Notes: generated from the letters alone by a model not told the origin. Positions 12,298-29,509 are shown, counted from the first letter of the stretch. The stretch is 45,817 bases of DNA from Actinomycetota bacterium (GCA_030841035.1 JAVEDI010000081.1:1-45817); one strand, 5' to 3'. Program-made: numbers and translations.

Positions 12298-12327
12298 GGC
12301 GTGATCCTTCCACGGACCGGCACATGC

Positions 12328-12360: not shown

Positions 12361-12392
12361 CATCGCTGTGTGCCGGCAGCCCGGCGATGCGG

Positions 12393-13768: not shown

Positions 13769-13769
13769 G

Positions 13770-14465
13770 TCAGCTGCCCGCCTTCTGGTCGAAACGCCGC
13801 GACAGCGCGTCCTCGGTGATGGTCACCTGTGACGTGAACGTCTTCGCCGGAACGCCGCTCGGGCCCGTCAGCTGCTCGTCGTCGGTGGAATCGGTGAAGT
13901 AGGCCTGGGTCCAGCCGCGCTCGCGAGCGAGCACCTGCAGCCAGGTGGCGACGTCGTTGTGCCCGTAGGCCTTGCCCTCGAACGTCACCGTGCCGATGCC
14001 AGCGGCCGGGTAGGTTGTGGTCGTGGTCGTCGGCGCACCCGCGACGGGTGCCGCGTCGGTCGTCTGCGTGGCGACCACGTTGGTGAGCCACACCTTCGAG
14101 GGGATGCGCAGGCTCAGGTCGTTGAGATAGAACGACCAGCGGATCTCCTGTGCCATGGCTTGCGACCGCTGCAGCTTGGCGGCGTCGACTTTGGCGATCA
14201 CGGCCGGAACGTCCGCGTACTTGCCGGTCTGCGTCTGGAGCGAGGCTCCTTGCGCCTTGGTGGCGTCGAGATCCTGCTGCGCGCGGGAGACCTGGCTGCC
14301 CGCGGCGACCACGAGCAGGACGACGACACCGACCGCGGCGAGGACACAGCCCGCGAGGCCCCCCTGCAGCTTGCGCAGGCGACGCTGCTCGCCGATCTCC
14401 GGCGGCAGCAGGTTGACGACGGGGAGCGTGCCCACCCCGCTCCGGGTCAAGGTCTGCGTGCTCAT
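13770..14465 (-). CDS. pilN: PilN-like type IV pilus inner-membrane protein
   Basis: PilN binds PilM through its cytoplasmic N-terminal peptide and PilO through its periplasmic-side domain. The 231-residue protein carries the diagnostic PilM-binding peptide VNLLPPEI at residues 17-24. It then has a basic stretch, a membrane helix (about 36-58), a coiled coil and a globular domain with YLNDLSLRIPSKVWLTNV. The ATG at 14465 overlaps the pilM stop as ATGA, so synthesis is coupled. A Thr-rich loop (six consecutive Thr) lies near residue 150. Confidence 0.92.
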   Translation of the reverse strand: MSTQTLTRSGVGTLPVVNLLPPEIGEQRRLRKLQGGLAGCVLAAVGVVVLLVVAAGSQVSRAQQDLDATKAQGASLQTQTGKYADVPAVIAKVDAAKLQRSQAMAQEIRWSFYLNDLSLRIPSKVWLTNVVATQTTDAAPVAGAPTTTTTTYPAAGIGTVTFEGKAYGHNDVATWLQVLARERGWTQAYFTDSTDDEQLTGPSGVPAKTFTSQVTITEDALSRRFDQKAGS

Positions 14466-15523
14466 GATGCGGCTCCCAGAGCTAGGCCGACGGGGACCGC
14501 GGCGAGAGGCTGAACGAAGGCGATCTGTTCCGGCGACAGCCCGGTCTTGCCGAGCGTCAAGGAGTGCATGGGGTTGCCGGGCTCCACCGGGATCCGCGTG
14601 GCGACGCGGAGCCGATCCGCCAGCCGGCTCAGGCGCGCGCCGCCGCCGGTCAGGGTGAGCCTCGCGATCGGGGCGGAGCCGCTGGATGCGAGGTAGTAGT
14701 CCAGCGAACCGCGCACCTCGTCCACGAAGGCTGCCATGGTGGCGTCGACGACCCTGTCGGCCGCCTGAGCGCCGAAGCCGTCGGCCGGCTCGGCCGACAA
14801 CCGCTGCTTCATCGCCTCGGCCTCCTCCTGCGGCACGCCCATCCGCTCGGCGACGGCATCGGTGATGTCCTGGCCACCCATCAGCAGGATCCGGACGAAC
14901 TTCGGGACGCCCCCCTGGTGCACGATGATGTTGGTGATGCGCGCGCCGACGTCCACCAGTGCTTCCACCGGCGCGCCGACGCCCAGGTCGTCGAACGCCG
15001 CAACCGACCGGATCACCGCGAAGGACGTCAGGTCGACCATGACCGGAGTGAGTCCGGCCTTCAGGACCGCGGCAAGGTTCGTGTTGACCATGTCGCGGGA
15101 GGCCGCGACGAGCAGCCCCCGCACGAGCCGCGCCCCGGACTCACCGGTGCGCTCCTCGAGCGGGTGGAAGTCGAGCACTGCTGCCTCGACCGGCATCGGG
15201 ATGAGGTCGCTTACCTGGAAGGCGAGCGACTTCTTGAGCTCGTTCCCCGGCATCCAGGGCAGGTCGACCTGGCGCACGATGACCTTCTGGTTGGCCACCC
15301 CGATGACGACCTTCTTGCTGCTGAACTTGGTGTGCGTCCAGAGCTGTTTGATCGCGGCGGCAACGGCGTCGGCACTGACTACCTCGCCGTCACGGACCGC
15401 ACCGTCAGGAAGGGCCACCTGGCCGAACTTCTCCAGGGTGACTCGTCCCTTGCCAAACGACAGCTCTGCGGCGCGTACGCCCGAGGTCCCGATGTCGAGA
15501 CCGATGGCGGATCGTCCTGCCAC
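14462..15523 (-). CDS. pilM: PilM-like actin-fold pilus assembly ATP-binding protein
   Basis: PilM is a cytoplasmic actin/FtsA-like protein that binds PilN and contacts the pilus motors. The 353-residue product begins MAGRSAIGLDIGTSGVRAAEL, the phosphate 1 motif of the actin fold. It has LVDVGARITNIIV (phosphate 2) and LTLTGGGARLSRLADRL (adenosine motif). The FPMPVEEAV-like segment appears as LIPMPVEAAVLDF. The ATG at 15523 follows GGGAAGGAAG. It is first in pilM-N-O-P and is preceded by a sigma-28-like promoter element at 15589-15617. Confidence 0.95.
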   Translation of the reverse strand: MAGRSAIGLDIGTSGVRAAELSFGKGRVTLEKFGQVALPDGAVRDGEVVSADAVAAAIKQLWTHTKFSSKKVVIGVANQKVIVRQVDLPWMPGNELKKSLAFQVSDLIPMPVEAAVLDFHPLEERTGESGARLVRGLLVAASRDMVNTNLAAVLKAGLTPVMVDLTSFAVIRSVAAFDDLGVGAPVEALVDVGARITNIIVHQGGVPKFVRILLMGGQDITDAVAERMGVPQEEAEAMKQRLSAEPADGFGAQAADRVVDATMAAFVDEVRGSLDYYLASSGSAPIARLTLTGGGARLSRLADRLRVATRIPVEPGNPMHSLTLGKTGLSPEQIAFVQPLAAVPVGLALGAAS

Positions 15524-15588
15524 GATCGCTTCCTTCCCACTGGCGGCTCACACCGCGTGGTGACCCGTTCGGGTCGTGTCAAGGAAGT

Positions 15589-15617
15589 GGATCGACCGCC
15601 CGGGGACGCTCCTTGAG
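15589..15617 (-). promoter_or_regulatory. Sigma-28 (FliA/WhiG)-like promoter of pilM-N-O-P
   Basis: Minus strand CTCAA (15617-15613), 16-base spacer, GTCGATCC (15596-15589). It shares -35, spacer and -10 core with the elements before the second pilin, pilA, pilT and the roadblock operon. The predicted transcript start is near 15582, about 60 bases before pilM. Confidence 0.6.
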
Positions 15618-15625
15618 CGATCGAC

Positions 15626-16420
15626 TCAGGCGAGCACCTGATCGAGGTAAAGGTCTGCCAAAGCGCCGCCGGCAAGGATGGCGGCCAGCGCACCGGCGAG
15701 CATGTAGGGGCCGAACGGGATCTGCGACTTGCGTCCGGCTCGCCGGAGCGCCATCAGCGCCACACCGACGACGCCGCCGAAGAGGAACCCGAGGAAACCG
15801 CCCGTGATGACCTCTCCCCAGCCGAGGTATCCCAGATAGAGGCCCAGGACCCCGGCCAGCTTGACGTCGCCGAAACCCATGCCGGCCGGGTAGACGAAGG
15901 CCAGCAGGAAGTAGAAGCCGAACAGCGCCGTCATTCCCAGCAGCGCCCGCAGGAAGGATCCCGGGTCGTGCTCCCCGAGTGCCGCCAGTCCCAGCAGCCC
16001 CGCGGCGACCGGGTAGGAAGGCAGCACGATGGCGTTGGGCAGCCGCTTGACGTCCAGGTCGATGAGGGTGAGGGCCACCCCGATCGCCCCGAGGTAGAGG
16101 AATGCCGGCAGCTCGCCATGCCCCCCGATGCGCCCGGCGAGCACGGCGAAGACTGCAGCGGTCCCGAGCTCGACCAGCGGGTAGCGGATGCTGATCGGCT
16201 CAGCGCAGTCCCGACAACGGCCTCTCAGCAGCAGCCAGCTCAGCACCGGCACGTTGTCCCGCGCACGTACCCGTGCCTGACAACCCGGACAGCGCGAGGC
16301 CGGCCTCACGACCGACTCGCCACGTGGCACCCGCCAGATGACGACGTTGAGGAAGGACCCCACGAGCAGTCCCAGCAGCGCACATCCACCGATCAGCGCT
16401 ACCAGCACCGCGCGCTCCAT
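15626..16420 (-). CDS. pilD: Prepilin peptidase / N-methyltransferase (A24 family)
   Basis: This membrane aspartyl protease removes the leader after Gly in type IV prepilins and methylates the new N-terminus. The 264-residue protein has the N-terminal methylase domain with its zinc cysteines C44, C47, C69 and C72. The catalytic aspartates are D121 (TLIDLDVKRLP) and D185 in the GMGFGDVKL motif. Six to eight membrane segments are evident. It processes the four or five prepilins encoded just upstream. The ATG at 16420 sits almost on its GAGGA; a GTG four codons later has better spacing. It is separated by 104 bases from the PilX-like gene, where I found no convincing promoter. Confidence 0.96.
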   Translation of the reverse strand: MERAVLVALIGGCALLGLLVGSFLNVVIWRVPRGESVVRPASRCPGCQARVRARDNVPVLSWLLLRGRCRDCAEPISIRYPLVELGTAAVFAVLAGRIGGHGELPAFLYLGAIGVALTLIDLDVKRLPNAIVLPSYPVAAGLLGLAALGEHDPGSFLRALLGMTALFGFYFLLAFVYPAGMGFGDVKLAGVLGLYLGYLGWGEVITGGFLGFLFGGVVGVALMALRRAGRKSQIPFGPYMLAGALAAILAGGALADLYLDQVLA

Positions 16421-16524
16421 TCCTCGACCACCACACCGACGCTTTCATGCTAAGGAGAACCTCGGTGGGCTGGTCTGAGGACTCGCCGTTCGCCGCGGCC
16501 ACGGCTTGTGGTCCGCGCAGGTGC

Positions 16525-18297
16525 TCAGCGGTACTGCGGTGATATCTCGCCCGTGTAGTTGCCGGCCCACTTCGCGTCGGTCCACTGCGGGAAGTACGGC
16601 GGCGATGCGAACCGGAGCCGCTTGTCGTAGCGATAGTCCTTCAGATAGCCGGTGGACGGCGGGTTGCCCTGCCCGACGATCCCGCGCCACTTCTGGGCGA
16701 TCGATCCCCGGACATACAGCTTGCCCTGGTAGGTGCCGTCGTTGTAGGTCTGCACGAAGAAGCTGTGCTGCAGCGTCTGGATGGAGGCCGAGATCTGGAT
16801 CCCCTTGGTCGGGTACGCCACGTTGTTGTTGTCCACGTCGCCATACCTTCTGGGCCATCCCGCCACCTCGTTGGGATTGTCGTCCCAGCCCCAGGTGGTG
16901 CAGTTGCCCCTCCGGTCCCTGGCCTGGCAGTCCCAGGTGTCGACCATCGGGTGGAAGACCTCCACGGAGTTCGCCGCGACCAGGCCGAGCATGTCGGTGC
17001 CCGCCAGGCCGCTGGCGAGGACCACGTCCCCCGTCACGGTGATGGAGTTGGAGGCCGCCAACGTCACACGCCCCTTGACCACGCCCTCGACGTAGACGTT
17101 TCCTTGGCCACAGCGCTGTGTTGCGAGAGTCGCGTTGAGGTCATAGGTGTATGTCGTCGCACTGTTGCCGGTATAGGTGCCGAGTGGCAGGCCGTCCCCG
17201 ATCTCGCCGGACAGGCACTGATGAACGCCGGCAGTGCCGCCCTTGACGTAGATGACCTGGTCGTTGGGCACTGCGACGGTGACGCCCATCGGGTTGTTGC
17301 CGCCGCACGCCGGTGTCGTCAGCGACTCCTTGCTCCAGACCGTCATCTGACCGCTGGCGAGGAACTTGATCCGCGTAGCTCCGGAGTACTGGCAGCCCGG
17401 GTAGTTCTTGAACTGGTCGCTGTTGTCGGGAAGGCTCTTGGTCGCCGCCCACGTCGGCCAGCTGCCCGCGTAGTCGCCGCCGTTGCCCGTACGGTCGCAG
17501 TTGCCATAAGTGCTCGGGTCGCCGGCCTTGGCCTTCTTGCAGTCCGGGTCGCTCGTCTCGAGACCCTGGGCAAACTTGGGCTTCACGCCGCCGACGCTCG
17601 TGAACAGCGGCGTGTCGTTCATGTGAGCGGGGCCGTCGAGCACGTCACCTCCGATGAAGGTGATCTCTCTGCAGCCGGAGCTTGTCGAGTTCGCGTCGCG
17701 CCCGGCCCACCAGTAGGCGGCGCAGTCGGGATCCATCGTTCCCGGGTAGGACTGCTTGTTGTCCGGGTCGGCGTCCTCGTGGTCGGTGTAGTACAGGAAG
17801 TCCGTCGAGCCACCACGGCCGACACCGACCTGCAGCGTCCGGGTTCTGCTGCCGACTCGACCCGTCGAGGTCACCTCGACGACGCCATTGCTCTCGAGCT
17901 GCGACGGGTCGATGTCGTAGTGGAACTCCCCAGCGGCTGCGCTCGCGGAGTCGATGCGCTTCCAGCCCACCGGGGTAGACGAGTTCCAGCCGCAGGTGTT
18001 CGGGCCGGTGTTCGGACCCTTCAGCGCGATGTTCAGGCAGTCGATCGGCGTGCGTGCATAGTTGTCGTTGCGGTTGAGGTAGCCGATGTAGTCGTCCACG
18101 CCCGCCTGCGCAGCGGCCAACGCGCCGTTCCAGTCCTGGTTCGTCCGGGAGAAGCGCTGCGTGTTCATCGCATAACCCAAGGCTGCGAAGGCGAACATGC
18201 TGCCGATGATCATGCAGACGACGACCATGACCAGGGCAAAGCCCTCCTCGTCGCCGGCTCGCCGGCGATCCCACAGCTGCCAGATCATCATCTTCAT
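16525..18297 (-). CDS. Large PilX-like pilus-associated protein (putative tip adhesin)
   Basis: A 590-residue protein with a PilX-type N-terminus: a short basic/acidic leader, DEEG then FALVMVVVCMIIGSMFAF, a class III cleavage site after G19. The Glu normally at mature position 5 is replaced by Met, as in PilX/GspK-type minor pilins. The long C-terminal part has at least a dozen cysteines and short repeated beta-strand stretches such as GNVYVEGVVKGRVTL and NSITVTGDVVLAS, suggesting a beta-helix or bactofilin-like fold. It is the last gene of the minor-pilin operon, and its start overlaps the PilW-like stop as ATGA. By analogy with other pilus tips it may be the adhesin; that is inference. Confidence 0.8.
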   Translation of the reverse strand: MKMMIWQLWDRRRAGDEEGFALVMVVVCMIIGSMFAFAALGYAMNTQRFSRTNQDWNGALAAAQAGVDDYIGYLNRNDNYARTPIDCLNIALKGPNTGPNTCGWNSSTPVGWKRIDSASAAAGEFHYDIDPSQLESNGVVEVTSTGRVGSRTRTLQVGVGRGGSTDFLYYTDHEDADPDNKQSYPGTMDPDCAAYWWAGRDANSTSSGCREITFIGGDVLDGPAHMNDTPLFTSVGGVKPKFAQGLETSDPDCKKAKAGDPSTYGNCDRTGNGGDYAGSWPTWAATKSLPDNSDQFKNYPGCQYSGATRIKFLASGQMTVWSKESLTTPACGGNNPMGVTVAVPNDQVIYVKGGTAGVHQCLSGEIGDGLPLGTYTGNSATTYTYDLNATLATQRCGQGNVYVEGVVKGRVTLAASNSITVTGDVVLASGLAGTDMLGLVAANSVEVFHPMVDTWDCQARDRRGNCTTWGWDDNPNEVAGWPRRYGDVDNNNVAYPTKGIQISASIQTLQHSFFVQTYNDGTYQGKLYVRGSIAQKWRGIVGQGNPPSTGYLKDYRYDKRLRFASPPYFPQWTDAKWAGNYTGEISPQYR

Positions 18298-18995
18298 TCC
18301 TCGTTCGCACGCACGACGGCGTCATGGTTGGGGAGCGCGACGCGCAGGACGTACGTGCTGCCGTTGCCGCCTACGCCGCTCTTCGCCACGGTCACGGAGA
18401 TGTCTATCGAGTCGACGACCTCGAGCTGCGCGGCGGTCAAGGTGGCACCGGTGAGCTTGTTCCCCAGCGCGTCGTAGTAGGTGAAGATCGGGTCCCCGCT
18501 CAGCACCACGCCTCGCGCCAGCACCTTGCTCGGAACGACACAGCCGGGGCCCGGGGCGCAGTAGATGTACACCGGTTTGGTCGGATCAGCGACTGGCATC
18601 GGGCGCTGCACCGTCTGGCTGAGCACCCCGCTTGACACGCTGTAGGTGACCTTGCTCGGTCCGATGGCGTTGTTCGCGTTGTCGATGTTGGCGTAGAACC
18701 GGATGGATGTGGGTGTGGCCTCGATGAAGGCTGCCGTCTCGACTGAGGTGGTGTCGAAGAGCTGGCTCGGCAGGATGGCAGTGCGCAGCGTCCGTCCCAT
18801 CGACGAGATGGCGATGCGACCGTCGTTGATCTCTTCCAGTCGGCCCTGCGTGCCCTTCGTCGTCCGAAGCGAGCCGAGGTACAACGTGGCACACGTCACG
18901 AGCACGATGCTCGTGAGCACCGTGGCGACCATCACCTCGACGAGGGTGATGCCCCTGTCCGCCCCGTCGCGGGCCATCCTGCCGGGGAGACGCAT
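18294..18995 (-). CDS. PilW-like minor prepilin
   Basis: The 233-residue protein has a class III prepilin leader ending DRG, then ITLVEVMVATVLTSIVLVT: cleavage after Gly, Glu at mature position 5, and a hydrophobic helix. The rest is a beta-rich globular domain with two cysteines (YCAPGPGC). The pattern of a helix followed by substitution of short beta strands matches PilW/GspJ-type minor pilins. The correct start is the ATG at 18995, which shares one base with the stop of the gene before it; the same frame stays open far upstream but inside that gene. Four overlapping genes make one minor-pilin operon. Confidence 0.85.
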   Translation of the reverse strand: MRLPGRMARDGADRGITLVEVMVATVLTSIVLVTCATLYLGSLRTTKGTQGRLEEINDGRIAISSMGRTLRTAILPSQLFDTTSVETAAFIEATPTSIRFYANIDNANNAIGPSKVTYSVSSGVLSQTVQRPMPVADPTKPVYIYCAPGPGCVVPSKVLARGVVLSGDPIFTYYDALGNKLTGATLTAAQLEVVDSIDISVTVAKSGVGGNGSTYVLRVALPNHDAVVRANEE

Positions 18996-20329
18996 CAGTC
19001 CACCTCGAAGGTGTAGGTCGTGACGCCGACCGAGGCGGGCGTCAGCGTGGCGGTGGCCGGAAGGAACCGGTAGGTCGTCTGGAGCATCCACTTGCCGTAG
19101 GGCAGCGACGTCTTGAGCTTCCCGCTGCCGTCGGTGGTGCCCAGCGTCAGCATGCGGTCGGGCACCGTGGCACCACAGTTCTGGCTCGTGGCGGTCACGA
19201 CGGCACCGGAGACAGGCACCCCGCCACGGGTCGCGACGGTGAGGTCCAGCGGAGCAAGCCGTGCGTTGACGGAACCGACGCCGCCCGGGGGAAGGACGAC
19301 GACGGCGCCACGGGTGCCACTGGTCGGCAAGCCGGCCGGGTCGGAGTCGTTGCACCCCCCGGGCCACGCGGCGTAGCCGTCCTTGCTCGGCCAGAGACCC
19401 GTCACCCGCGTCGTCGTCCCGGTCGCGGCGACGATCTGTCGTGCGCTGGCAGCCGCAACGTTGGGCTTGATGTAGTTGACCGCCGGCAGGATGCTGGGCA
19501 GCGCGTATCCACCGTCTGTCGTCAGAGTCACGTCCATGCTGGCCATGGCGTCGTAGGTCATCGACAGCCTGACCAGCTGTCCGGCCGTGACGGCAGGAGC
19601 GGTCTTGACCGAACGCTGTGTTCCGGTCTGGTCCACCCAACCGGGCATGTCGAGGGTCACGACGTAGGTGCCGGGACTACCGACCTGGAAGACGGCGCAG
19701 CCGCTGTCGTCCGTGCTGTGAGTGAAGGTGCCGCCCGGTCCCTTCGCCTCGGCCGTCACCCCGACCGCCGCCAAGCCGGCCGCGTTCTGCACCTTGACGG
19801 CGACGAACGCCGTCGACAGGTCGGCGAGGGTGCCCTTCAGCGGCGTCATCAACGTCTCGGCACGCACCGGCTTGGCGGACCGCATGTTCGGCCAGGTGAC
19901 GGTGACGGAGACGTCCAGGCTCGGGTAGTTGACCACGCTGCCGCCGTCGCACGCGCTGACACCGGTGCCTGTCGGGAGCCACTGGACGTCTCGGCGCACC
20001 GTGTACGGCGTACCGTCCACCACGCTGTCACCAGGCGGGCCGAGCGGATTCCCGTTGGTCACCGCGTTGGTCGCCGCGACGGCCATGGCGTCAGCGGTGC
20101 TCGAGGCGAACTTGTTACGCACGATCTCGAGCTCACGGGCGGCCAGGTTGGCGGCGGCCACCCGCTGGCGGCTCACCTTGGAGACGCTCAGGCCGTTCAG
20201 CAGCACGATGCTGAGCGACGCGGCGAACAGCATGAGCACCACCATGGCCACGACCACCTCGACCAAGGAGAAGCCGGCCTCGTCACGCTGCAACCGGCGC
20301 CGGAGCGCAGCGGAGCGTCGCATCAGCAT
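18995..20329 (-). CDS. PilV-like minor prepilin fused to Ig-like/Cna-B-type domains
   Basis: The 444-residue protein starts as a prepilin: basic leader, DEAG then FSLVEVVVAMVVLMLFAASL, Glu at mature position 5. After a pilin-like region of about 150 residues come two domains with the carboxypeptidase-regulatory or Cna-B pattern. One is near residues 165-235 (VAVKVQNAAG, AVFQVGSPGTYVVTLDMPGW) and one is near 355-440 (LDLTVATRGGVPVSGAVVTA, SLPYGKWMLQT). Such beta-sandwich domains act as stalks or ligand-binding modules in surface proteins. Start may be the ATG at 20329 or the one two codons later at 20323, which would share one base with the previous stop like its neighbours. Confidence 0.85.
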   Translation of the reverse strand: MLMRRSAALRRRLQRDEAGFSLVEVVVAMVVLMLFAASLSIVLLNGLSVSKVSRQRVAAANLAARELEIVRNKFASSTADAMAVAATNAVTNGNPLGPPGDSVVDGTPYTVRRDVQWLPTGTGVSACDGGSVVNYPSLDVSVTVTWPNMRSAKPVRAETLMTPLKGTLADLSTAFVAVKVQNAAGLAAVGVTAEAKGPGGTFTHSTDDSGCAVFQVGSPGTYVVTLDMPGWVDQTGTQRSVKTAPAVTAGQLVRLSMTYDAMASMDVTLTTDGGYALPSILPAVNYIKPNVAAASARQIVAATGTTTRVTGLWPSKDGYAAWPGGCNDSDPAGLPTSGTRGAVVVLPPGGVGSVNARLAPLDLTVATRGGVPVSGAVVTATSQNCGATVPDRMLTLGTTDGSGKLKTSLPYGKWMLQTTYRFLPATATLTPASVGVTTYTFEVD

Positions 20330-20781
20330 GTCCCTGCCTCCAGGCCTTGATCGGCGGAGTAGCGGAAGTCCTTGATGTCGCCCATGCGATCAGTCAGCGA
20401 GACGCACCAGGCCTTCGGGTCCCCGAGGTTCGACGACGAACCCGAGCCCGGCACCGCCGTCCCGTTGGTGAGGTTGATGGTCACGGAGTAGGACCCTTCG
20501 GAGAGGACGGCACTGCCGGGGACGCTCGCGTAGTCCAGTGACGGCGTGCCCGTTCCGTCGACGAAGTACGTGGCCAGCTCCTTGCCGACATGGGCGACGT
20601 CGGATCGGGTGGACGCGTCGTGGGCTTTCGCGCGCTGGGTCAGAAAGACTGGAATGGCGATCGCAGCAAGGGTGCCGACGACGATGACGACGACCAGCAT
20701 CTCGATGAGCGTGAAGCCGCCCTCGCGGCCGCGCTGCGCATCGCCTTCCCGCTCGCCAAGGCACCGTGCCATCTCAGTCAC
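20323..20781 (-). CDS. Second type IV pilin (PilA-like), first gene of minor-pilin operon
   Basis: The 152-residue prepilin has leader REGG and mature start FTLIEMLVVVIVVGTLAAI, followed by PVFLTQRAKAHDASTRSDV. It closely resembles the major pilin in this window in helix, in the strand KELATYFVDGTGT and in the C-terminal KAWCVSLTDRMGDIKDFRYS with two cysteines (WC and GTC). It is therefore a paralogue. The GTG at 20781 almost coincides with the predicted transcript start, so translation is either leaderless or begins at the ATG three codons later (20772). The gene is followed by the PilV-, PilW- and PilX-like genes with overlapping ends. Confidence 0.88.
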   Translation of the reverse strand: MTEMARCLGEREGDAQRGREGGFTLIEMLVVVIVVGTLAAIAIPVFLTQRAKAHDASTRSDVAHVGKELATYFVDGTGTPSLDYASVPGSAVLSEGSYSVTINLTNGTAVPGSGSSSNLGDPKAWCVSLTDRMGDIKDFRYSADQGLEAGTC

Positions 20782-20954: not shown

Positions 20955-21446
20955 TCAGGCGGAGCCGGTGCAGGTGCCCGCCGCGAGGCCGTTCGCTGCC
21001 GAGTACTTCCAGTTCTTCTTGTCGCCCTTGGGGTTGGTCACGGAGATACACCAGGCGGAGTCACTGACAATGTTCGTGGCGGTGCCCTGGCCGCTCGGAA
21101 CGGTTACGTTGGCGCTGGCCTTGCCCAGGTCGTAGGTGTAGCCACCCGCCGTCAGGGTGTAGTGGTTGGCCGTGACGGCGTCCGACGTCGCCGAGGCTGC
21201 AGCAGCGGTAGCCGCGATGGTGACCACACCGGAGCCGGTGCCGTCGACGTAGAAGGTGGCGATCTCCTTACCGAGGGTGGAGACGTCGGCCTTGGCCGCG
21301 GAGTCCTGGGCCTTCGCGCGCTGCGAGAGGAAGACCGGGATGGCGATGGCGGCGAGGATACCGATGATGATCATGACAACCAGGAGCTCGATGAGCGTGA
21401 AGCCGCCCTCGTTCTCCTCGCTGGCCTTGCGAAGCCGTGCGAGCAT
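20955..21446 (-). CDS. pilA: Major type IV pilin
   Basis: The pilus subunit. From the ATG at 21446 (AAAGGA eight bases upstream) the 163-residue prepilin has the leader MLARLRKASEENEGG, cleavage after Gly, and mature FTLIELLVVMIIIGILAAIA with Glu at position 5. PVFLSQRAKAQDSAAKADV continues the helix. The globular part has two cysteines (SAWCISVTNP and AAGTC), likely forming the usual disulphide loop. An upstream in-frame start at 21656 would place a basic, Pro-rich stretch before the leader and would translate the regulatory leader, so I reject it. It stands alone between its own promoter, a riboswitch-like leader and a strong terminator, which fits the most highly expressed pilus gene. Confidence 0.95.
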   Translation of the reverse strand: MLARLRKASEENEGGFTLIELLVVMIIIGILAAIAIPVFLSQRAKAQDSAAKADVSTLGKEIATFYVDGTGSGVVTIAATAAAASATSDAVTANHYTLTAGGYTYDLGKASANVTVPSGQGTATNIVSDSAWCISVTNPKGDKKNWKYSAANGLAAGTCTGSA

Positions 21447-21621: not shown

Positions 21622-21650
21622 TTTTCGGCCTCGGGTACCGCGGCCTTTAG
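21622..21650 (-). promoter_or_regulatory. Sigma-28 (FliA/WhiG)-like promoter of pilA
   Basis: Minus strand CTAAA (21650-21646), 16 bases, GCCGAAAA (21629-21622). It differs at one of eight positions from the GCCGATAA -10 consensus of FliA/WhiG sigma factors. The expected transcript start near 21615 lies about 15 bases before the riboswitch-like fold, giving a leader of about 170 bases. Confidence 0.65.
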
Positions 21651-21754: not shown

Positions 21755-22981
21755 TTACTGGATGAGCTTGAACACCCCGAAGATCGGCATGTACAAGGCG
21801 ATGATCATGGAGCCGATGATCCCGCCGAGCACCGCAATCATGAGCGGCTCGATCAGCGACGTCAGTGCCTCCGTCGTCGCCTCGACCTCCTGATCGTAGA
21901 AGTCGGAGATCTTGTGCAGCATCGCGTCGAGGGCCCCGGTGTCCTCACCGACGGACATCATCTGCACGACCATCGGGGGGAACACGCTGTGCTGCTCGAG
22001 GGGCTTGGCCAGCGACTCGCCGTTGCGCACACTCTCCTCGACATCCTTGATGGCTCTCTCGAGGACGACGTTGCCTGTCGTGGCCGACACGATCTCCAGC
22101 GACTGCAGGATCGGGACACCCGAGCGCATCATCGTTCCGAGGTTGCGGCTGAAGCGGCTCAGCGCAATCTTCTGGGTCAGCTTGCCGAAGATGGGCGCCT
22201 TGAGCTTGATCGGGTCCAGGACGTTGCGGACCTGCGGCTTGTGCTTGATCTTCGGCCAGGTGAAGAAGAACGCGACGACCGCGACGAGCCCGACCGGCGC
22301 GATGATCTTCATGGCCCCGCTCAGGAAGACCAGCACTCTCGTCGGCGCCGGCAGCGTGCCGCCCAGGTCGTCGAACATGTGGGCGAAGACGGGCACGATG
22401 AACAGCAGCATGCCGACGACAGCCAGGATGGCGATGACGAAGACGACGACGGGGTAGGTCATCGCCGACTTGACCTTGGCTCGCAGCTTCACCTCGGCCT
22501 CGTAGTTCTCGGCCAGCTGCAGGAGCACGGCGTCGAGGAACCCGCCGACCTCACCCGCGCGGATCATGTTGACCATGAGAGGGGGGAAGGCGTTCGGATG
22601 CTTACCCATGGCGGCGGAGAGCGCCAGACCGGCCTCGACGTCGTTGCTGACCTCGTCGAGGACGCGAGACAGCTCCTTGTTCTCGGTCTGCTCGGACAGG
22701 ATGGTCAGGGCGCGAAGGAGCGAGAGACTCGAGTTGATCATCACGGCGAACTGCCGCGACATGACCGCCAGGTCCTTGAGCTTGATCTTCGTACCCATCC
22801 CCGGGATGGAGATCTCGGTGTTCATGCCCCGGCTCTTCTTCTCCGAGACGTGCAGGGGCGCGTACCCCATGGTCTTGAGCTTCTCTACGACCGAGGCTTG
22901 TGACTCTGCGTCGAGCTGTCCCGACACGATCTTTCCGGCCCGGTCGCGCACCGAGTACTGGTAGGTCAAAGTGGCTGCCAT
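21755..22981 (-). CDS. pilC: Type IV pilus inner-membrane platform protein PilC
   Basis: PilC is the membrane platform turned by the PilB and PilT motors. The 408-residue protein has a small N-terminal domain (ATLTYQYSVRDRAGKIVSGQ). Two GspF repeats follow, each with a cytoplasmic helical bundle and membrane segments. The bundles contain LLRALTILSEQTENKEL and ILQSLEIVSATTGNVVL. The conserved QMMSVGEDTGALDAML and FPPLMVNMIRAGEVGGFLD pairs show the internal duplication. It starts 11 bases after pilT and must share its transcript. Start ATG at 22981 follows GAGAGGCAG. Length is normal. Confidence 0.97.
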   Translation of the reverse strand: MAATLTYQYSVRDRAGKIVSGQLDAESQASVVEKLKTMGYAPLHVSEKKSRGMNTEISIPGMGTKIKLKDLAVMSRQFAVMINSSLSLLRALTILSEQTENKELSRVLDEVSNDVEAGLALSAAMGKHPNAFPPLMVNMIRAGEVGGFLDAVLLQLAENYEAEVKLRAKVKSAMTYPVVVFVIAILAVVGMLLFIVPVFAHMFDDLGGTLPAPTRVLVFLSGAMKIIAPVGLVAVVAFFFTWPKIKHKPQVRNVLDPIKLKAPIFGKLTQKIALSRFSRNLGTMMRSGVPILQSLEIVSATTGNVVLERAIKDVEESVRNGESLAKPLEQHSVFPPMVVQMMSVGEDTGALDAMLHKISDFYDQEVEATTEALTSLIEPLMIAVLGGIIGSMIIALYMPIFGVFKLIQ

Positions 22982-22992: not shown

Positions 22993-24540
22993 TCACGCTC
23001 TGCCGGCGAGGCGGTTGAAGTCCTCGAGGTGGTGGCACTTCTCCAGGCCGGTCTCATAGGTGATGCGACCGGTCACCACCAGGTCCGCCAGGTGCTGGTC
23101 CATGGTGTGCATGCCGTGCTTCGCGCCAGCCTGCATCGCGGAGTAGATCTGGTGCGTCTTGCCTTCGCGAATCAGGTTCCGGACGGCGGGCGTCGCCACG
23201 AGCACCTCGGTGGCCACCGCACGACCCTTGCCGTCTGCGGTCTTCGCCAGGGTCTGGCAGACCACGCCCTGCAAGGAGCCGGCCAGCTGCACGCGCACCT
23301 GCTGCTGCTGGTGTGGTGGGAAGACGTCGATGATGCGGTCGATGGTCTGGGCCGCGTCGGACGTGTGCAGGGTGGCGAACACGAGGTGACCGGTCTCAGC
23401 CGCGGTGAGCGCGACAGAGATGGTCTCGAGGTCGCGCATCTCACCCACGAGGATGATGTCGGGGTCCTGACGCAGCACATGCTTCAGCGCGCTGCTGAAG
23501 GACCAGGTGTCCTCCCCCACCTCGCGCTGGTTGACGATGCAGCGCTGGTGGCGGTGGAGGAACTCGATCGGGTCCTCGACCGTCATGATGTGCTCGTCGC
23601 GGGTGCGGTTGGCGAGATCGACCAGTGAAGCAAGGGTCGTCGACTTGCCCGATCCGGTCGGTCCGGTGACGAGCACGAACCCGCGGGGCAGCTGTGCGAA
23701 GTTGGCGACAGCCGGCGGGACGCCGAGAGCCTCGAGCTTCTTGATCTCGAACGGGATGATGCGAAACGCCGCGCCGAGGGCATCGCGCTGACGGTAGACG
23801 TTCACCCGGAACCGGGCCCGGCCCGGCACGCTGTAGGAGAAGTCCAGCTCGAGGTTCTCCTCGAACTTCTCGCGCTGCTTCTGCGTCATCGCCGCGTAGA
23901 GCACTCGCTGGATCACCGGCGGCGTGAGCATCGGCTGGTCCTCGAGCTGCCGCAGGGCGCCGTTGAGGCGAATGGCGGGCCGGGCACCCGAGGTGAGGTG
24001 CAGGTCCGACGCGCCGCGCTCGAGAACGGTGAGGAGGAGTCCGTTGAGATCGACCCCTTCCTCGTCAGGGTGGTCCTCCGTGGAGCCTCGGCGGTAGGCG
24101 TCCTCCGAAGCCTCGGACTCCACCACCGCGAGGTGGCCGGTCTCGGCGGGCAGCAGCGACACGACGTCGGCCTGCCAACCGCGACGTGCGGGCGCGACCT
24201 CGTCCGGCACGCGGGTGGGCCCGGCGCCGTACGTCGCCGTGGCTTCCTGCGGGTACGCCGGCACGGTCTCCGTCCCGGGGGGCGCCGCGGGCTCGAGCCC
24301 GAAGTCATAGACCGGCGCAGCGGCCGGAGGGGGGAACGGCGCGGTGAGCGGTTCGAGGGCGACCGTCGGGACCGCCGGGCCGGCAGAGGCCGTCGGGGTC
24401 TCGCCGGTCTCCGCGACGAAGGAGTAGGTCCACCCTCCGGAGCCGCCCTCGGCGGGAGCCGTCGGCGCGGGTGCAGGCGTGAAGCCTCCCGGCTGCTCGG
24501 ACGGTTCCGGTGCGGCCGGCTTGAATCCGGACGTCTCCAC
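22993..24540 (-). CDS. pilT: Pilus retraction ATPase PilT with long low-complexity N-terminus
   Basis: PilT is the hexameric motor that depolymerises the pilus for twitching and surface sensing. The core (about the last 345 residues) has Walker A GPTGSGKST, the Asp box IMTVEDPIEFLH, Walker B ILVGEMRDLETI, the His box TGHLVFATLHTSDA and the PilT-specific retraction motif AVRNLIREGK. Unusually about 165 residues rich in Pro, Ala, Glu and Ser precede the core, where most PilT proteins have almost nothing. I start at GTG 24540 after GAGAGGGG; the frame stays open to a GTG at 24618, but that codon lies inside the predicted promoter. Cotranscribed with pilC. Confidence 0.95.
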   Translation of the reverse strand: METSGFKPAAPEPSEQPGGFTPAPAPTAPAEGGSGGWTYSFVAETGETPTASAGPAVPTVALEPLTAPFPPPAAAPVYDFGLEPAAPPGTETVPAYPQEATATYGAGPTRVPDEVAPARRGWQADVVSLLPAETGHLAVVESEASEDAYRRGSTEDHPDEEGVDLNGLLLTVLERGASDLHLTSGARPAIRLNGALRQLEDQPMLTPPVIQRVLYAAMTQKQREKFEENLELDFSYSVPGRARFRVNVYRQRDALGAAFRIIPFEIKKLEALGVPPAVANFAQLPRGFVLVTGPTGSGKSTTLASLVDLANRTRDEHIMTVEDPIEFLHRHQRCIVNQREVGEDTWSFSSALKHVLRQDPDIILVGEMRDLETISVALTAAETGHLVFATLHTSDAAQTIDRIIDVFPPHQQQQVRVQLAGSLQGVVCQTLAKTADGKGRAVATEVLVATPAVRNLIREGKTHQIYSAMQAGAKHGMHTMDQHLADLVVTGRITYETGLEKCHHLEDFNRLAGRA

Positions 24541-24597: not shown

Positions 24598-24626
24598 CAA
24601 TCGGCCGGACAGCCACACCGCTTGAG
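24598..24626 (-). promoter_or_regulatory. Sigma-28 (FliA/WhiG)-like promoter of pilT-pilC
   Basis: Minus strand CTCAA (24626-24622), 16 bases, GCCGATTG (24605-24598). Six of eight -10 positions match GCCGATAA. The predicted start near 24591 gives a leader of about 50 bases to the pilT GTG. The element occupies the 144-base gap after pilB. Confidence 0.65.
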
Positions 24627-24684: not shown

Positions 24685-26349
24685 TCAGACGACCACGCGC
24701 AGGATCTCGTCGAGCGACGTGATCCCGGCGGTCACCTTGGACATGCCGTCCATGCGCAGCGTGACCATGCCCTCCTCGCGAGCCACCTGGTCGATCGTCG
24801 TCGCGGAAGCGTGCTCAACGGCCAGCCGCTCGACCTGCTCGCTGACCACCATGACCTCGTGCAGCGCCAGGCGTCCCTTGTAACCCGTCTTGGAGCAGAC
24901 CGAGCAGCCGACGGGGCGGAACAGCTCGGGCACCGGCTCTCCGTCCTGCCATGGGAAGCGGGCAGCCACGAGTGACTCCGGCGTCGGCGTGTACGCCTCC
25001 TTGCACTTCGAGCAGAGCCGCCGGGCAAGCCGCTGGGCCAGGACGGCGTCGAGCGCGGACCCGACGAGGAAGGGTTCGATGCCCATCTCGGTGAGACGCG
25101 TGATGGCCGAGGGCGCGTCGTTGGTGTGCAGGGTGGACAGGACGAGGTGACCCGTGAGCGCGGCTTCGACGGCGATCTGTGCCGTCTCGTGGTCGCGGAT
25201 CTCACCGATCAGCACGATGTCCGGGTCCGACCGCAGGATCGACCGCAGGGCCGAGGCGAAAGTCAGGCCCGCCTTGACGTTGGTCTGCACCTGGTTGATG
25301 CCGGGCAACCGGTACTCGACCGGGTCCTCGACGGTGATGACGTTGACCTCCGGCCGGCTGATGATGTTCAGCGTGGCGTAGAGCGTCGTCGACTTGCCCG
25401 AGCCCGTCGGGCCGGTGACGAGGATCATCCCGTAGGGCTTGGTGAACGAGCGTGAGTAACGCTCGTAGTTGGAGTCCGAGAAACCGAGGTCTGCCAGGTC
25501 GAGGCGCGCCGTCGAGTTGTCGAGGATACGCATGACGACCTTCTCGCCCCACACCGTCGGCAGGGTCGCCACCCGCAGGTCGACCTTCCTGCCGTGCGCG
25601 TTGACCGACAGCCGGCCGTCCTGCGGGATGCGGCGCTCGGCGATGTTGATGTCGGACATGATCTTCAGTCGGCTGATGACACCCGACTGGATCGCCTTGG
25701 GTGAGCGCATCACCTCGTGCAGCACACCGTCGATGCGGAACCTGACCCTCAGGTCCGTCTCCGTCGGCTCGAGGTGGATGTCCGACGCGCGGTCCTGGAT
25801 CGCCTGAGTGATCAACAGGTTGACGTACTTGACGATCGGCGCGTCTTCGACGATCTCCTTGACCTTGCTGAGGTCCTCCTCCTCCTCTGCGGAGTCGAGG
25901 ACGCTGGTCAGGTCGTCGAGGTCGGAGTCGGCCCGGTAGTAGCGGTCGATGGCCGCTGCCACGTCGGCACGCGTCGCGACGACGGGTTTGACGTCGATAC
26001 CGGTGAGCGAGCGGATGTCGTCGATCGCGAAGACGTTTGCCGGGTCGGCCATGGCGACCAGCAGCTTGCCTTCTTCGAACCCGATCGGGATGGCGGAGTG
26101 CCGGCGGCAGACGGTGCCGGGCACACGCCCCACGGCCGAGCCGTCGACGGGGAACTCCGACAGATCGACGAAGCGCAGACCGATCTGGGTGGCGAGCGCG
26201 GCGACCAGCTGCGACTCGGTCAGGACGCCCTGTTCGATCAGCACGCGCCCGAGGGCACGCCCGACCCGCTCCTGCTCCCGGTACGCGGCCTCCAGCTGGG
26301 TGGGGCTCACCAGGCCGCCCTCCAGCAGGATGTCGCCCAGCTGCTTCAC
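24685..26349 (-). CDS. pilB: Pilus extension ATPase PilB
   Basis: PilB powers pilus polymerisation. From GTG 26349 (GAGGAG upstream) the 554-residue product has an MshEN-like N-terminal domain of two helical repeats (QLGDILLEGGLV and ALGRVLIEQGVL, each ending in Gln). The catalytic core follows, with Walker A GPTGSGKST, Asp box TVEDPVEYRL, Walker B VLIGEIRDHETA and TGHLVLSTLHTNDAPSA. A tetracysteine zinc motif (CSKC then CSVC) identifies PilB rather than PilT. In proven cyclic-di-GMP binders the MshEN repeats start with Arg; here they start with Gln and Ala, so binding is uncertain. It may be read from the upstream GTPase operon or from its own weak promoter. Confidence 0.97.
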   Translation of the reverse strand: MKQLGDILLEGGLVSPTQLEAAYREQERVGRALGRVLIEQGVLTESQLVAALATQIGLRFVDLSEFPVDGSAVGRVPGTVCRRHSAIPIGFEEGKLLVAMADPANVFAIDDIRSLTGIDVKPVVATRADVAAAIDRYYRADSDLDDLTSVLDSAEEEEDLSKVKEIVEDAPIVKYVNLLITQAIQDRASDIHLEPTETDLRVRFRIDGVLHEVMRSPKAIQSGVISRLKIMSDINIAERRIPQDGRLSVNAHGRKVDLRVATLPTVWGEKVVMRILDNSTARLDLADLGFSDSNYERYSRSFTKPYGMILVTGPTGSGKSTTLYATLNIISRPEVNVITVEDPVEYRLPGINQVQTNVKAGLTFASALRSILRSDPDIVLIGEIRDHETAQIAVEAALTGHLVLSTLHTNDAPSAITRLTEMGIEPFLVGSALDAVLAQRLARRLCSKCKEAYTPTPESLVAARFPWQDGEPVPELFRPVGCSVCSKTGYKGRLALHEVMVVSEQVERLAVEHASATTIDQVAREEGMVTLRMDGMSKVTAGITSLDEILRVVV

Positions 26350-26494: not shown

Positions 26495-26665
26495 TCACCA
26501 GTCGGCGAGCAGCACGGCGAGGTGGCAGATCGAGCTGCCGACCGGGGATTCCGGACCGAAGCTCACCTCGCCGCCGTCGGCGAAGACGAGGTGTACGACG
26601 GCATGTGGGTCGACCCGTCGATGCCGCCCGGTGGTACCGCCGTACACGGTGGTGGTGTCCACCAC
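26495..26665 (-). CDS. Small hypothetical protein (56 aa) directly after the GTPase
   Basis: An open frame starting at GTG 26665 (or the next GTG) and ending TGA at 26495. It encodes 56 residues: VVDTTTVYGGTTGRH, then HAVVHLVFADGGEVSFG, then SSICHLAVLLADW. Alternating hydrophobic residues suggest a small beta-rich domain ending in a helix, and composition looks protein-like rather than random high-GC shadow. It starts immediately after the GTPase TAG and in the same reading frame, so it would be made by re-initiation, or as a C-terminal extension if the TAG is read through. I do not recognise a family. Confidence 0.55.
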   Translation of the reverse strand: MVDTTTVYGGTTGRHRRVDPHAVVHLVFADGGEVSFGPESPVGSSICHLAVLLADW

Positions 26666-27241
26666 CTACACCCGGACCGCCGCTGCCTCGACATCGTCGA
26701 GGACGGCGTAGAGCAATGCCAGCAGCACCTTCTTGACCGACTCCTTGTCGGTCGCGTCGCACGACAGGATCGCCACGTCGCCCGGGATCTGCAGCCGGGT
26801 GCGAACACGTTCGACCAGCGCGTGGTCGTCACCCGAGCTGCGGTTGAGAGCCACCACGTAGGGCACGCGAGCCATCCGGCGGAACGCCTCGTGGATGCCG
26901 GCGGCCTCCTCGATGGAGTCCTCCCGCTCGGCGTCGATCAGCACCAGGTACCCGATCATGCCCTCGCCGAGGATCTCCCACATGAAGTCGAAGCGTTCCT
27001 GGCCGGGCGTGCCGAAGAGGTACAGCACGAGGTCCCGGTCGATCGTGATCCGGCCGAAGTCCATCGCCACGGTCGTCTCGGCCTTGCGGCGACGGGTCGA
27101 GTCGGTGACGTCACGCTCGGTGGAGAGCACCGTGATCTCGCTGATCGTGCGGATCAGGGTCGTCTTCCCGGCTGCGAACGGCCCGGTCACGACGACCTTG
27201 ACCGCCTGGCCGCCGCGTCGTCGGGTGCGGGGGGGTGCCAT
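26666..27241 (-). CDS. Ras-like small GTPase of the conservon (CvnD) type
   Basis: The 191-residue protein has P-loop GPFAAGKTT (residues 20-28), a Thr-rich switch I region (KAETTVAMDFG), G3/switch II FGTPGQERFDF (76-86), G4-like ALNRSSGDD (131-139) and G5-like LSCDATD. This is the pattern of actinobacterial CvnD GTPases, relatives of MglA. These are normally encoded with a roadblock/LC7 partner (CvnB), a DUF742 protein and a sensor kinase. Here the roadblock partner is two genes upstream and a DUF4388 protein replaces the others. The start abuts the preceding stop with no gap. Position beside pilB suggests a switch that controls pilus motors; this is inference. Confidence 0.9.
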   Translation of the reverse strand: MAPPRTRRRGGQAVKVVVTGPFAAGKTTLIRTISEITVLSTERDVTDSTRRRKAETTVAMDFGRITIDRDLVLYLFGTPGQERFDFMWEILGEGMIGYLVLIDAEREDSIEEAAGIHEAFRRMARVPYVVALNRSSGDDHALVERVRTRLQIPGDVAILSCDATDKESVKKVLLALLYAVLDDVEAAAVRV

Positions 27242-28531
27242 CTAGAGCCCCCTCACGCCGGCGATCAGGCGCAGCATGAGGCTGCGGTTGACGTGCGGGT
27301 CCCGCTCGATCACCGAAGCCAGCTCGGGGTCGATGGCCGTAGCGGTCGCCCCCATGGCGTCACCGGCCGCCCCCCCGGAGCGACCCGGCAGGGAGGGGCG
27401 GTGCGCGGGCGGGGCGAGGGTCTCCTCGAAGTCGGCCTGCCGCTTGGGCAGGAAGGGCTCGGGCCGCGGCGGCACGACGTCACCGGGCACGTGGGCGCCG
27501 CCGAGCATGCCGGGGCCCTCCGAGGTGGACACGGTCACCAGCTGCGCGTCGTCGCCCGTGAGCGCGGGCGAGGCGGTCTCCTGGTTGCCCAGGCCGAACC
27601 CCGGCTGCGGTGCCGGCGCCGTCGCATCCGCGCGGGCAGCGGCGACGGGTGAGTTGCGCGCAGGCGCGGCAGGTGAGGTCGCAGGCGTGGCGGGCTCGAC
27701 CGCTGTCTCGGCTACCGCCTCGGCCGGACTGGTGGCGGCCACCGCGACCGTCGTGAACGGCGCATCCTCGAGGGCGCTCAGGATGCGGTGCCGACGTAGG
27801 ACCACGTTGACGTGGTCGGCGACTGCGTCCTCAGGGTCGCGTACGTCGAGCAGGCCGCGGGTCACGAGGCCGGCGAGCAGCGACACGACGGCGAACTGTC
27901 CGCTTCCGGTCAGGTCGACGAGCTCCGCGACGGTGCGACGACCGTCTACCAGCGCCAGCAGCGACCACTCCTCGCGGGAGACGTCGGGGTCGGCGGGCAG
28001 CACGACCGGCATGGCGAGCACGGCCTTGGTGGAGGGCACGATCTGTGACACGGCCTCCCAGGAGGTCTGGCGCGCGTTCGCTTCGGCCAGCACGGTCTCC
28101 ACCGACATGGCGACACCGACGTCGTCAGGGTTCCCCTCGCCCATGACGAACGCGAAGTCACCCTCGCTCCAACGCAGCAGGTCGAACACCGCATCGACCG
28201 ACTGGTCGGTGACGGCCTGCTGCACCATGTCGGCCTCGATGGCCGACCGGTCGAGCAGCGCTCTCGCGACTCCGACGCCCGCGCCCTCGGCTGCGGTCTC
28301 GACCGCGGCGCTGAGCGAGTCGTCGTCGACCACGCCGGCGCCGATCAGTCGGCGGGCCAGCGGTTGGCGGGAGGTGTCCGCCGACGCGCCCGTGACCTGG
28401 CCGTCGAGGAAGAAGACGACGCCGTCGTAGCCCTCGCTGGCCAGGTGCAGCCCGCCGGTCTTCTTGGTGAAGCTCAGCAGCTGGAAGACGTCCGGCAGAC
28501 CGAAGGCGTCCAGCGAACCCTCTAGTTTCAT
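27242..28531 (-). CDS. DUF4388 (PATAN) domain protein
   Basis: The 429-residue protein starts with a DUF4388/PATAN domain (MKLEGSLDAFGLPDVFQLL, TKKTGGLHL, VVFFLDGQVTGA). A helical region and a winged-helix-like segment near residues 195-245 (WSLLALVDGRRTVAELVDLT) follow. After that come about 140 low-complexity residues and a conserved-looking C-terminal tail (ELASVIERDPHVNRSLMLRLI). PATAN domains of Synechocystis response regulators bind PilB and set pilus activity, so this protein is a candidate adaptor between the GTPase pair and PilB. There is no receiver domain. It lies one base after the roadblock gene. Confidence 0.85.
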   Translation of the reverse strand: MKLEGSLDAFGLPDVFQLLSFTKKTGGLHLASEGYDGVVFFLDGQVTGASADTSRQPLARRLIGAGVVDDDSLSAAVETAAEGAGVGVARALLDRSAIEADMVQQAVTDQSVDAVFDLLRWSEGDFAFVMGEGNPDDVGVAMSVETVLAEANARQTSWEAVSQIVPSTKAVLAMPVVLPADPDVSREEWSLLALVDGRRTVAELVDLTGSGQFAVVSLLAGLVTRGLLDVRDPEDAVADHVNVVLRRHRILSALEDAPFTTVAVAATSPAEAVAETAVEPATPATSPAAPARNSPVAAARADATAPAPQPGFGLGNQETASPALTGDDAQLVTVSTSEGPGMLGGAHVPGDVVPPRPEPFLPKRQADFEETLAPPAHRPSLPGRSGGAAGDAMGATATAIDPELASVIERDPHVNRSLMLRLIAGVRGL

Positions 28532-28532
28532 G

Positions 28533-29204
28533 TCAGCTCCAGCTCGCGACGTCGGCGGCGTCCGGCCCGCTGTCCGGCAGGATGGTGTCGGCGGCGTACC
28601 AGGTGCCGGCCGTGGAGGCGGCTACCGACGCGGCCGCAGCAGGCCCCTGAGCCGCGGAAGCCGCCGGGGTCGGCGAGGGCTCGAAGGCCTCGGCGCCCGC
28701 GTGGTACGTCGGCTCGGGTGCTGCGTGCAGCAGCGGCTCGGCGTGCCGCGGTGCGGCCACGTCGTCGTACGCCGGCTGGGTCACGTCGTTGAGCAACGGT
28801 TCGACGCGCAACACCTCGGCGACAGCCGTGGCGGCCCGGCGGACCTCGAACAGCATCAGGCCGACCTTCGCACCCTTGGCCGTGACCGCGACGAGGACGG
28901 CCTCGTCCTCGGCGGAGACCAGGAAGACCGTCCCTTCGTCACCTTCGACGTAGACCTGCGACAGCTCGCCACGGCCGAGGCCCTCGGCAGCCCGCTCGCC
29001 CAGCGACAGGAGCGCCGCGCTCATCGCGGCAACCCGGTCTTCCTCCATGCCAGGGGGAAGGGCGGCGGCCATGGGCAGGCCGTCGAACGACACGACGGAC
29101 GCCGCCTCGATCTCGGGCACCTGCGCCACCAGCTCGGTCAGGACGTGGCCCAGCCGGATCGATCGGCTCAGACCGCTCTGAGGGTGTCCGTGCGCGCGCG
29201 TCAT
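28533..29204 (-). CDS. Roadblock/LC7 domain protein (MglB/CvnB-like)
   Basis: Residues 15-130 form a roadblock/LC7 domain: LGHVLTELVAQVPEIEAASVVSFDGLPMAAALP, then AAMSAALLSLGERAAEGLG, then VFLVSAEDEAVLVAVTAKGAKVGLMLFEVRRAA. Such proteins bind Ras-like GTPases; MglB, for example, is the activating protein of MglA. A tail of about 90 residues, Ala/Pro rich, follows and is unusual for the family. It is the first gene of a tight operon with the DUF4388 protein, the GTPase and the 56-residue ORF. The ATG at 29204 follows GAGGTGGAG. A clear sigma-28-like promoter stands upstream. Confidence 0.9.
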   Translation of the reverse strand: MTRAHGHPQSGLSRSIRLGHVLTELVAQVPEIEAASVVSFDGLPMAAALPPGMEEDRVAAMSAALLSLGERAAEGLGRGELSQVYVEGDEGTVFLVSAEDEAVLVAVTAKGAKVGLMLFEVRRAATAVAEVLRVEPLLNDVTQPAYDDVAAPRHAEPLLHAAPEPTYHAGAEAFEPSPTPAASAAQGPAAAASVAASTAGTWYAADTILPDSGPDAADVASWS

Positions 29205-29262: not shown

Positions 29263-29291
29263 CCATCGGCGTGACGGTCGCGGGGCTTGAG
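29263..29291 (-). promoter_or_regulatory. Sigma-28 (FliA/WhiG)-like promoter of the roadblock-DUF4388-GTPase operon
   Basis: Minus strand CTCAA (29291-29287), 16 bases, GCCGATGG (29270-29263). This is one of the two best matches in the window and lies 59 bases before the roadblock start. It ties the GTPase module to the pilus transcription units. Confidence 0.65.
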
Positions 29292-29303: not shown

Positions 29304-29509
29304 GCCGGTCACCACGGCGTCCCCGCAGACGTCCGCCGACCCCCCAGACCCGTGATCGTGAGGGAAACCAGCACCGATCCCGTGCCGAACCCCCTCACGA
29401 TCACCCGCCGGTCACCACGGCCTCCCCCGCAGGCGTCCACCGACACCCCAGACCCGTGATCGTGAGGGAAACCAGCACCGATCCCGTGCCGAACCCCCTC
29501 ACGATCACC
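29304..29509. repeat. Two tandem palindromic repeats of about 103 bases
   Basis: Two direct copies (about 29304-29405 and 29407-29509). Their last 55 bases are identical; the first halves differ by a few substitutions and one indel. Each contains a 13-pair inverted repeat GTGATCGTGAGGG/CCCTCACGATCAC (29352-29364 with 29392-29404, and 29456-29468 with 29496-29508). They fill most of the 349-base gap between mltG and the roadblock gene. They could terminate mltG transcripts and insulate the pilus regulon, or belong to a dispersed REP-like family. Confidence 0.85.

Follow-up and report, generated by a model that had tools for sequence, protein, structure and literature searches.

What do a roadblock protein, a PATAN protein and a small GTPase do directly ahead of a type IV pilus motor gene? 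The question is raised by 45,817 nucleotides from an Actinomycetota bacterium (GCA_030841035.1, JAVEDI010000081.1:1-45817), referred to below as the window. Its minus strand carries a roadblock/LC7 gene, a PATAN (DUF4388) gene and a small Ras-like GTPase gene (together, the trio) just upstream of pilB, which encodes the extension ATPase. The best explanation is that the trio, as a GTPase-activating protein (GAP), a PATAN adaptor and a GTPase, probably forms an accessory switch for the motor PilB. Co-inheritance and co-location with pilB, a class of WhiG-type promoter in common with the pilus genes, and a PATAN tail found only where a GTPase gene is adjacent were established by comparison of sequences.

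Linkage to pilB and a common promoter class

The roadblock gene (28533..29204, minus strand; 223 aa, MglB/CvnB-like; PF03259 Robl_LC7, 66.7 bits), the PATAN gene (27242..28531, minus; 429 aa; PF14332, 86.3 bits against a cut-off of 25) and the GTPase gene (26666..27241, minus; motifs GPFAAGKTT, ETTVAMDFGR and FGTPGQ; assigned by an ATP_bind_1/Ras match and a tree) are spaced by no more than about 1 base from stop to next start. They are followed by a 56-aa open reading frame (ORF; 26495..26665, minus), recognised by family-limited conservation and shared at this place by just four relatives from the host's family (44-56% identity), and then by pilB (24685..26349, minus; GTG start at 26349; TIGR02538, 665 bits). 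An earlier note on this DNA had named these genes, with the range 26495-29204 for those from the 56-aa ORF to roadblock, and the Pfam and TIGR matches agreed with it. The minus-strand order is alaS, ruvX, mltG, roadblock, PATAN/DUF4388, GTPase, 56-aa ORF, pilB, pilT, pilC, pilins, a gene for a 590-aa protein, pilD, pilM, pilN, pilO and aroC. The host genome (3.95 Mb in 120 contigs, 99.8% complete) contains no Robl_LC7 match other than this roadblock, and one additional DUF4388 gene elsewhere. The locus is therefore not one of several conservons.

Linkage was followed in a class survey of 148 Actinomycetota genomes and in an independent phylum survey of other classes. GTPase matches in the class survey were split by a gap in identity into orthologues at about 61% or higher (32 genomes) and conservon-like proteins of at most 52%. 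Of the 32 trio genomes, 29 had a close pilB (at least 71% identity); the three others have the trio at or near a contig end. Both trio and close pilB, trio only, close pilB only and neither were found in 29, 3, 12 and 104 of the 148 genomes, respectively (Fisher p = 6e-18, uncorrected for shared descent). Where both were present, pilB lay downstream within 1.5 kb in 20 genomes, at 8-16 kb in six and on another contig in three. The phylum survey yielded a trio-type GTPase in 23 further genomes; pilB followed on the same strand after 33-2328 bp in 20, and the remaining three matches were at contig ends. Over both surveys the GTPase gene was upstream of pilB in 46/46 evaluable genomes (40 within 2.4 kb, six at 8-16 kb), a recurrence which argues that the association is not due to chance. 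A genome co-occurrence check had been proposed in the earlier note, which named, as one part of a refutation, a trio equally common away from pilus genes. For the full trio this was not so, and the trio is very likely, on this sequence evidence, a module dedicated to the pilus.

A motif search placed a WhiG/FliA-type (sigma-28) promoter, CTCAAG-N15-GCCGAT, before roadblock (29265..29291, minus). With small variations allowed, [CT]TCAAG-N15-GCCGA[TA] was found at 31/31 trio loci in the class, 14-90 bp ahead of roadblock, against 0.3 expected from shuffles, and was absent from that position at a conservon locus (L063). The same element precedes pilA in 16/17 and pilT in 13/26 of the class loci. 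Genome-wide, CTMAAG-N15-GYCGAW yielded 11 sites in the host, against 0 for a reversed control, all of them 8-177 bp before a plausible start codon. Five lie in the pilus cluster, before roadblock, pilT, pilA, a minor pilin and pilM, and the earlier claim of one promoter type for trio and pilus genes was correct. A sigma factor of the FliA/WhiG family (286 bits) is encoded in the host within xerC-whiG-rpsB-tsf-pyrH-frr, the gene neighbourhood of Streptomyces whiG; no flagellin was found in the host genome. A WhiG-type sigma factor together with matching promoters marks the pilus cluster and trio as a predicted WhiG regulon. The six sites outside the cluster (L189, L190, L191, L197, L198, L199) precede genes for secreted CAP-like, receiver-GAF, secreted nuclease-like, small membrane, secreted GH26 and 110-aa cysteine-containing proteins, named from the sequence where there was no Pfam match.

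Sigma-28-type promoters are known from other actinobacterial pilus clusters. The Rubrobacter cluster has WhiG promoters (PMC8325347) and, according to the same source, Actinoplanes pili are linked to FliA-family sigma factors. In contrast to the trio locus, neither a roadblock protein nor a GTPase is mentioned in the text of that paper for Rubrobacter.

Natural variants of the locus were also found. In G028, G029, G032 and G080 the alaS-ruvX-mltG...pilB backbone is present with nothing of the trio, so a pilus cluster can exist without the module. In several genomes of one family (f13) the trio follows uvrC-rapZ-yvcK-whiA and still precedes pilB where the contig is long enough. Six genomes (L043, L045, L046, L050, L055, L056) have an island between the GTPase gene and pilB. 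Among the island genes examined are those of glycosyltransferases, a flippase, a DegT aminotransferase, a sulfotransferase, a methyltransferase and a 2-oxoglutarate (2OG) oxygenase, and the islands may, from the same promoter, serve exopolysaccharide or the glycosylation of pilin. In G194, G298 and G216 a PATAN gene stands directly before pilB with no adjacent GTPase gene; G216 has a GTPase fragment on a separate contig. By pilB linkage, common promoter type and intact pilus clusters where the trio is missing, the joining of trio and pilus that the earlier note proposed was borne out.

Two further arrangements were observed. In Coriobacteriia and relatives (L102, L103, L117, L121, L123, L149) roadblock is immediately preceded by another gene for a PilB-like ATPase, placing the trio between two pilB-like genes. 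In Solincola-type genomes (L107 5253-6495; L201, L202, L204-L206) three tandem roadblock genes precede the gene of a ~1,000-aa PATAN protein.

The GTPase and its PATAN partner

The window GTPase was placed in a 115-sequence tree (a quick tree with a midpoint root), in which a long, fully supported branch split 19 conservon GTPases from 96 relatives of the window GTPase. The clade of the latter takes in Coriobacteriia, Geothermincolia-type and Chloroflexota proteins. The window GTPase is, by this tree, sister to the CvnD clade. It is related to CvnD but lies outside that clade; an identity as CvnD was thereby rejected, and the earlier label of 'CvnD-type' had to be dropped. Searched with phmmer against PDB chains, it matched only IFT22 (E = 9e-4).

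In Chloroflexota the PATAN gene adjoins the GTPase gene in essentially every locus whose contig reaches that far. A roadblock gene was adjacent in 3/55 of these loci, and no pilus genes were found near the pairs. The pair is therefore broader than pili, and it is the full trio that is tied to pili in Actinomycetota. Some Chloroflexota pairs (L111, L145, L124, at ~9,000-12,700) are followed by a gene read from its sequence as alpha/beta-hydrolase-like or V4R-like.

An AlphaFold2 model of the PATAN protein was confident over residues 1-235, with the PATAN domain (28055..28522, minus; PF14332 and structure comparison) followed by a CvnC-like winged helix (residues ~163-235; 27827..28045, minus; structure comparison and hhalign). 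The chain was mostly disordered to about residue 405, with a low-confidence helix at 412-426. Alignment defined a conserved C-terminal helix (residues 412-429; 27245..27298, minus) ending PHVNRSLMLRLIAGVRGL, and outside the folded core conservation is highest in the last 14-18 residues. Compared by hhalign, the CvnC winged helix matched that of the PATAN protein with E = 4e-6, or 2e-4 with a narrower alignment. A Foldseek search gave no match with E ≤ 0.001. For the winged helix the best VIA matches (NPRL2 of GATOR1; Z = 10, 11% identity) were taken to be generic winged helices.

The amphipathic tail pattern recurs in Coriobacteriia, Solincola and Chloroflexota. A weight matrix was built from these PATAN tails, with no conservon sequence in it, and tested on unused PATAN proteins. 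The tail was at the very C-terminus in 8/8 held-out GTPase-adjacent PATAN proteins (scores 10.8 to 30.4, against a background maximum of 8.7) and in 0/16 complete PATAN proteins without a neighbouring GTPase (scores at most 1.0; L230 faintly tail-like). Scored with the same matrix, 16/19 CvnC C-termini exceeded all 200 background C-termini. By these matches the PATAN protein is CvnC-like in its rear half, in both the winged helix and the C-terminal helix, and its gene directly precedes that of the GTPase.

The trio is comparable with the conservons (CvnA-B-C-D; Mfp) in its order of B (roadblock), C-like and D-like (GTPase) genes, in its actinobacterial hosts, and in a winged helix and C-terminal helix encoded just upstream of the GTPase. 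The window roadblock matches the cvnB5 structure 3leq (E = 6e-10). The trio differs in having no histidine kinase, its flanking genes being mltG and pilB, in a PATAN domain without Pfam DUF742 at the C position, in the separate clade of its GTPase, and in its location among type IV pilus genes with WhiG-type promoters. A Pfam scan of the locus gave no DUF742 match. The earlier description of the locus as lacking both kinase and DUF742 protein was accurate for the flanking genes and for Pfam, but the winged helix and tail of the PATAN protein resemble those of CvnC.

The helical insert of the PATAN domain (model residues 55-113) resembles the cyclic di-GMP-binding domains of MshE and PilF at Z ~5, which a common arrangement can also reach. 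The DUF4388 model has a weak match to the MshEN of PilB itself. With positions set by eye, A, V or S stands in place of the Gln of the MshEN motif (RLG...Q) in 28/28, and A or V in place of the Gly in 21/28. With the Gln missing and the Gly mostly missing, the insert was rejected as a cyclic di-GMP sensor.

A possible mechanism and its alternatives

In the proposed mechanism the roadblock protein would act as a GAP, like MglB and MfpD; by analogy this is quite likely. According to two sources (PMC13343842, PMC13015309), MfpD (CvnB) is a GAP and MfpC (CvnC) is reported as a guanine nucleotide exchange factor (GEF) for MfpB. The PATAN winged helix and C-terminal helix would bind the GTPase and would probably promote nucleotide exchange, as reported for MfpC. 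Engagement of the GTPase by the tail is likely from the conservation described above, and assignment of the rear half as a GEF, made by analogy, is tentative. The N-terminal head would dock on PilB. Cyanobacterial PATAN proteins are tied to pilus motors, and PixE is reported to bind PilB1 in Synechocystis (PMC7690835); contact between the window head and PilB is, on this precedent and on the PATAN genes directly before pilB in G194, G298 and G216, slightly favoured. The window protein has the PATAN domain in common with PixE, PixG and LsiR but differs from these Synechocystis regulators in having no receiver domain and in its winged helix and GTPase-associated tail. With its rear facing the GTPase and its head docked on PilB, GTP loading would set when or where PilB extends pili. 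Cyclic di-GMP could enter separately through the MshEN motif retained at the N-terminus of PilB (NF053729, 60.4 bits, cut-off 38), and perhaps via WhiG. The output of the module is most likely control of PilB activity or placement; that this control is spatial (polar) rather than temporal is doubtful. A more elaborate form of the proposal is improbable. In it the trio would be a distinct G-protein module with a GEF-like rear and a PATAN head on PilB via the MshEN-like insert, GTPase state and, through the MshEN of PilB, cyclic di-GMP would be read on the same ATPase ring, and the PATAN-GTPase pair, present in two phyla, would be an older core from which both the conservons and the pilus trio descend.

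Several observations weigh against this account. Many PilB-positive genomes lack the trio, and because many pilus clusters are without it, the module is regarded as an accessory layer. Among the Chloroflexota genomes with a PATAN-GTPase pair, 28/29 tested have no PilB, so PATAN need not bind PilB. In most of the loci checked outside the class, Coriobacteriia included, no WhiG-type promoter was found before roadblock. The tail could bind the membrane or the roadblock protein instead of the GTPase. MarR_2 also matches the PATAN winged helix, and the CvnC match could be generic; the tail-matrix match and the place between roadblock and GTPase make this less likely.

The trio could instead be an MglA-like polarity switch, in which the GTP-bound GTPase marks a pole, the roadblock protein excludes it elsewhere, and PATAN is a mere effector (an SgmX/FrzS analogue) that brings PilB there and has no part in nucleotide exchange. 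The MglA/MglB pair of Myxococcus and Thermus is likewise a small GTPase and a roadblock partner linked to type IV pili, and is described in PMC11580455 as controlling polar type IV pilus formation in Myxococcus. Both kinds of protein are present here, and the PATAN gene remains beside pilB where the GTPase gene is not adjacent. However, the window GTPase appears far from MglA in sequence, the PDB sequence search giving no MglA match; no counterparts of RomR, SgmX or Frz were noticed in the window; and the CvnC-like PATAN rear points to the role of a regulator. The trio also differs from MglA/MglB in having a PATAN protein in place of RomR/SgmX partners and in forming a fixed operon with pilB. 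A polarity switch of the MglA kind is unlikely.

The PATAN tail might also be an amphipathic membrane anchor and not a GTPase-binding element. The window tail and those of Chloroflexota are basic as well as amphipathic (calculated D 1.2-2.5), and a long disordered linker precedes the tail. Against this, several Coriobacteriia tails are neutral or acidic (D down to -0.19), presence of the tail follows the neighbouring GTPase and not the PATAN domain, and CvnC has the same tail. An anchor is accordingly an improbable function for it.

Conservon-like signalling with gene expression or surface glycan as its main output, the pilus being one co-regulated target, was judged still less probable. The 8-16 kb gap between GTPase gene and pilB in six genomes, where the genes examined are of glycan or polysaccharide type, would fit such an output, as would the action of conservon Cvn8 on specialized metabolism (PMC8510531); a winged helix could in principle bind DNA. 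Yet the trio has no adjoining histidine kinase, pilB is within 2.4 kb in 40/46 genomes, and the promoter class of the pilus genes is common to the trio. That the trio is near pilB merely as a passenger on the alaS-ruvX-mltG-aroE-pil backbone, which is conserved both with and without it, is very improbable, given that relocated f13 copies (after uvrC-rapZ-yvcK-whiA) still precede pilB with a glycan island between, that the linkage holds in other classes of the phylum, and that 29/32 trio genomes have PilB.

The pilus cluster and its wider setting

The cluster that the proposed PilB switch would serve is type IVa-like, since PilB, PilT, PilC, a prepilin peptidase, PilM/N/O and class III pilins are all present. 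All of its genes are on the minus strand. pilT (22993..24540) has a sigma-28-type promoter at 24600-24626. The PilT N-terminus carries a Pro/Ala-rich extension of about 165 residues ahead of the ATPase core (24045-24540), and several relatives likewise have a long PilT N-terminus. pilC (21755..22981) was identified by T2SSF and is followed by a pilA-like major pilin gene (20955..21446) with a sigma-28-type promoter at 21624-21650. Genes for minor pilins and the 590-aa protein, with pilD, pilM, pilN and pilO, occupy 13076..20781, with sigma-28-type promoters at 20791-20817 and 15591-15617. The C-terminal tail of the roadblock protein is variable and Pro/Ala-rich, and in most relatives ends near a tryptophan.

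Between mltG and roadblock lie two 85-bp direct copies (29321-29405 and 29425-29509; 96% identical, 104 bp apart). The element is palindromic with strong folding (z = -5.3), and has 95 partly overlapping matches genome-wide on both strands, often paired ~80-190 bp apart. It is classed from these features as a dispersed repeat resembling repetitive extragenic palindromic (REP) sequences or miniature inverted-repeat transposable elements (MITEs).

The components of the trio are known families, and PATAN-GTPase neighbourhoods have been known since 2014. PATAN genes were then found occasionally near Group 1 and Group 5 MglA-family GTPases in Actinobacteria and Chloroflexi (Wuichet and Sogaard-Andersen, 2014; PMC4316618); a pilB tie, a WhiG promoter and a common tail are not reported for these groups in the available part of that survey. 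A literature search did not find the fixed pilB tie, the WhiG-type promoter, the kinase-less B-C'-D layout or the tail common to PATAN proteins and CvnC, nor a small-GTPase system tied to actinobacterial type IV pili.

Actinobacterial type IV pili are little studied, and in many actinobacteria the trio very probably controls these retractable pili. It resembles a reduced and altered relative of signalling machinery so far described chiefly in Streptomyces and Mycobacterium. The common tail also hints at the way in which the GTPases of conservons and the CvnC proteins recognise one another. A compact three-gene switch, conserved across the classes of the phylum and with natural losses and two-part dissections, would allow GTPase-motor wiring to be studied outside Myxococcus.

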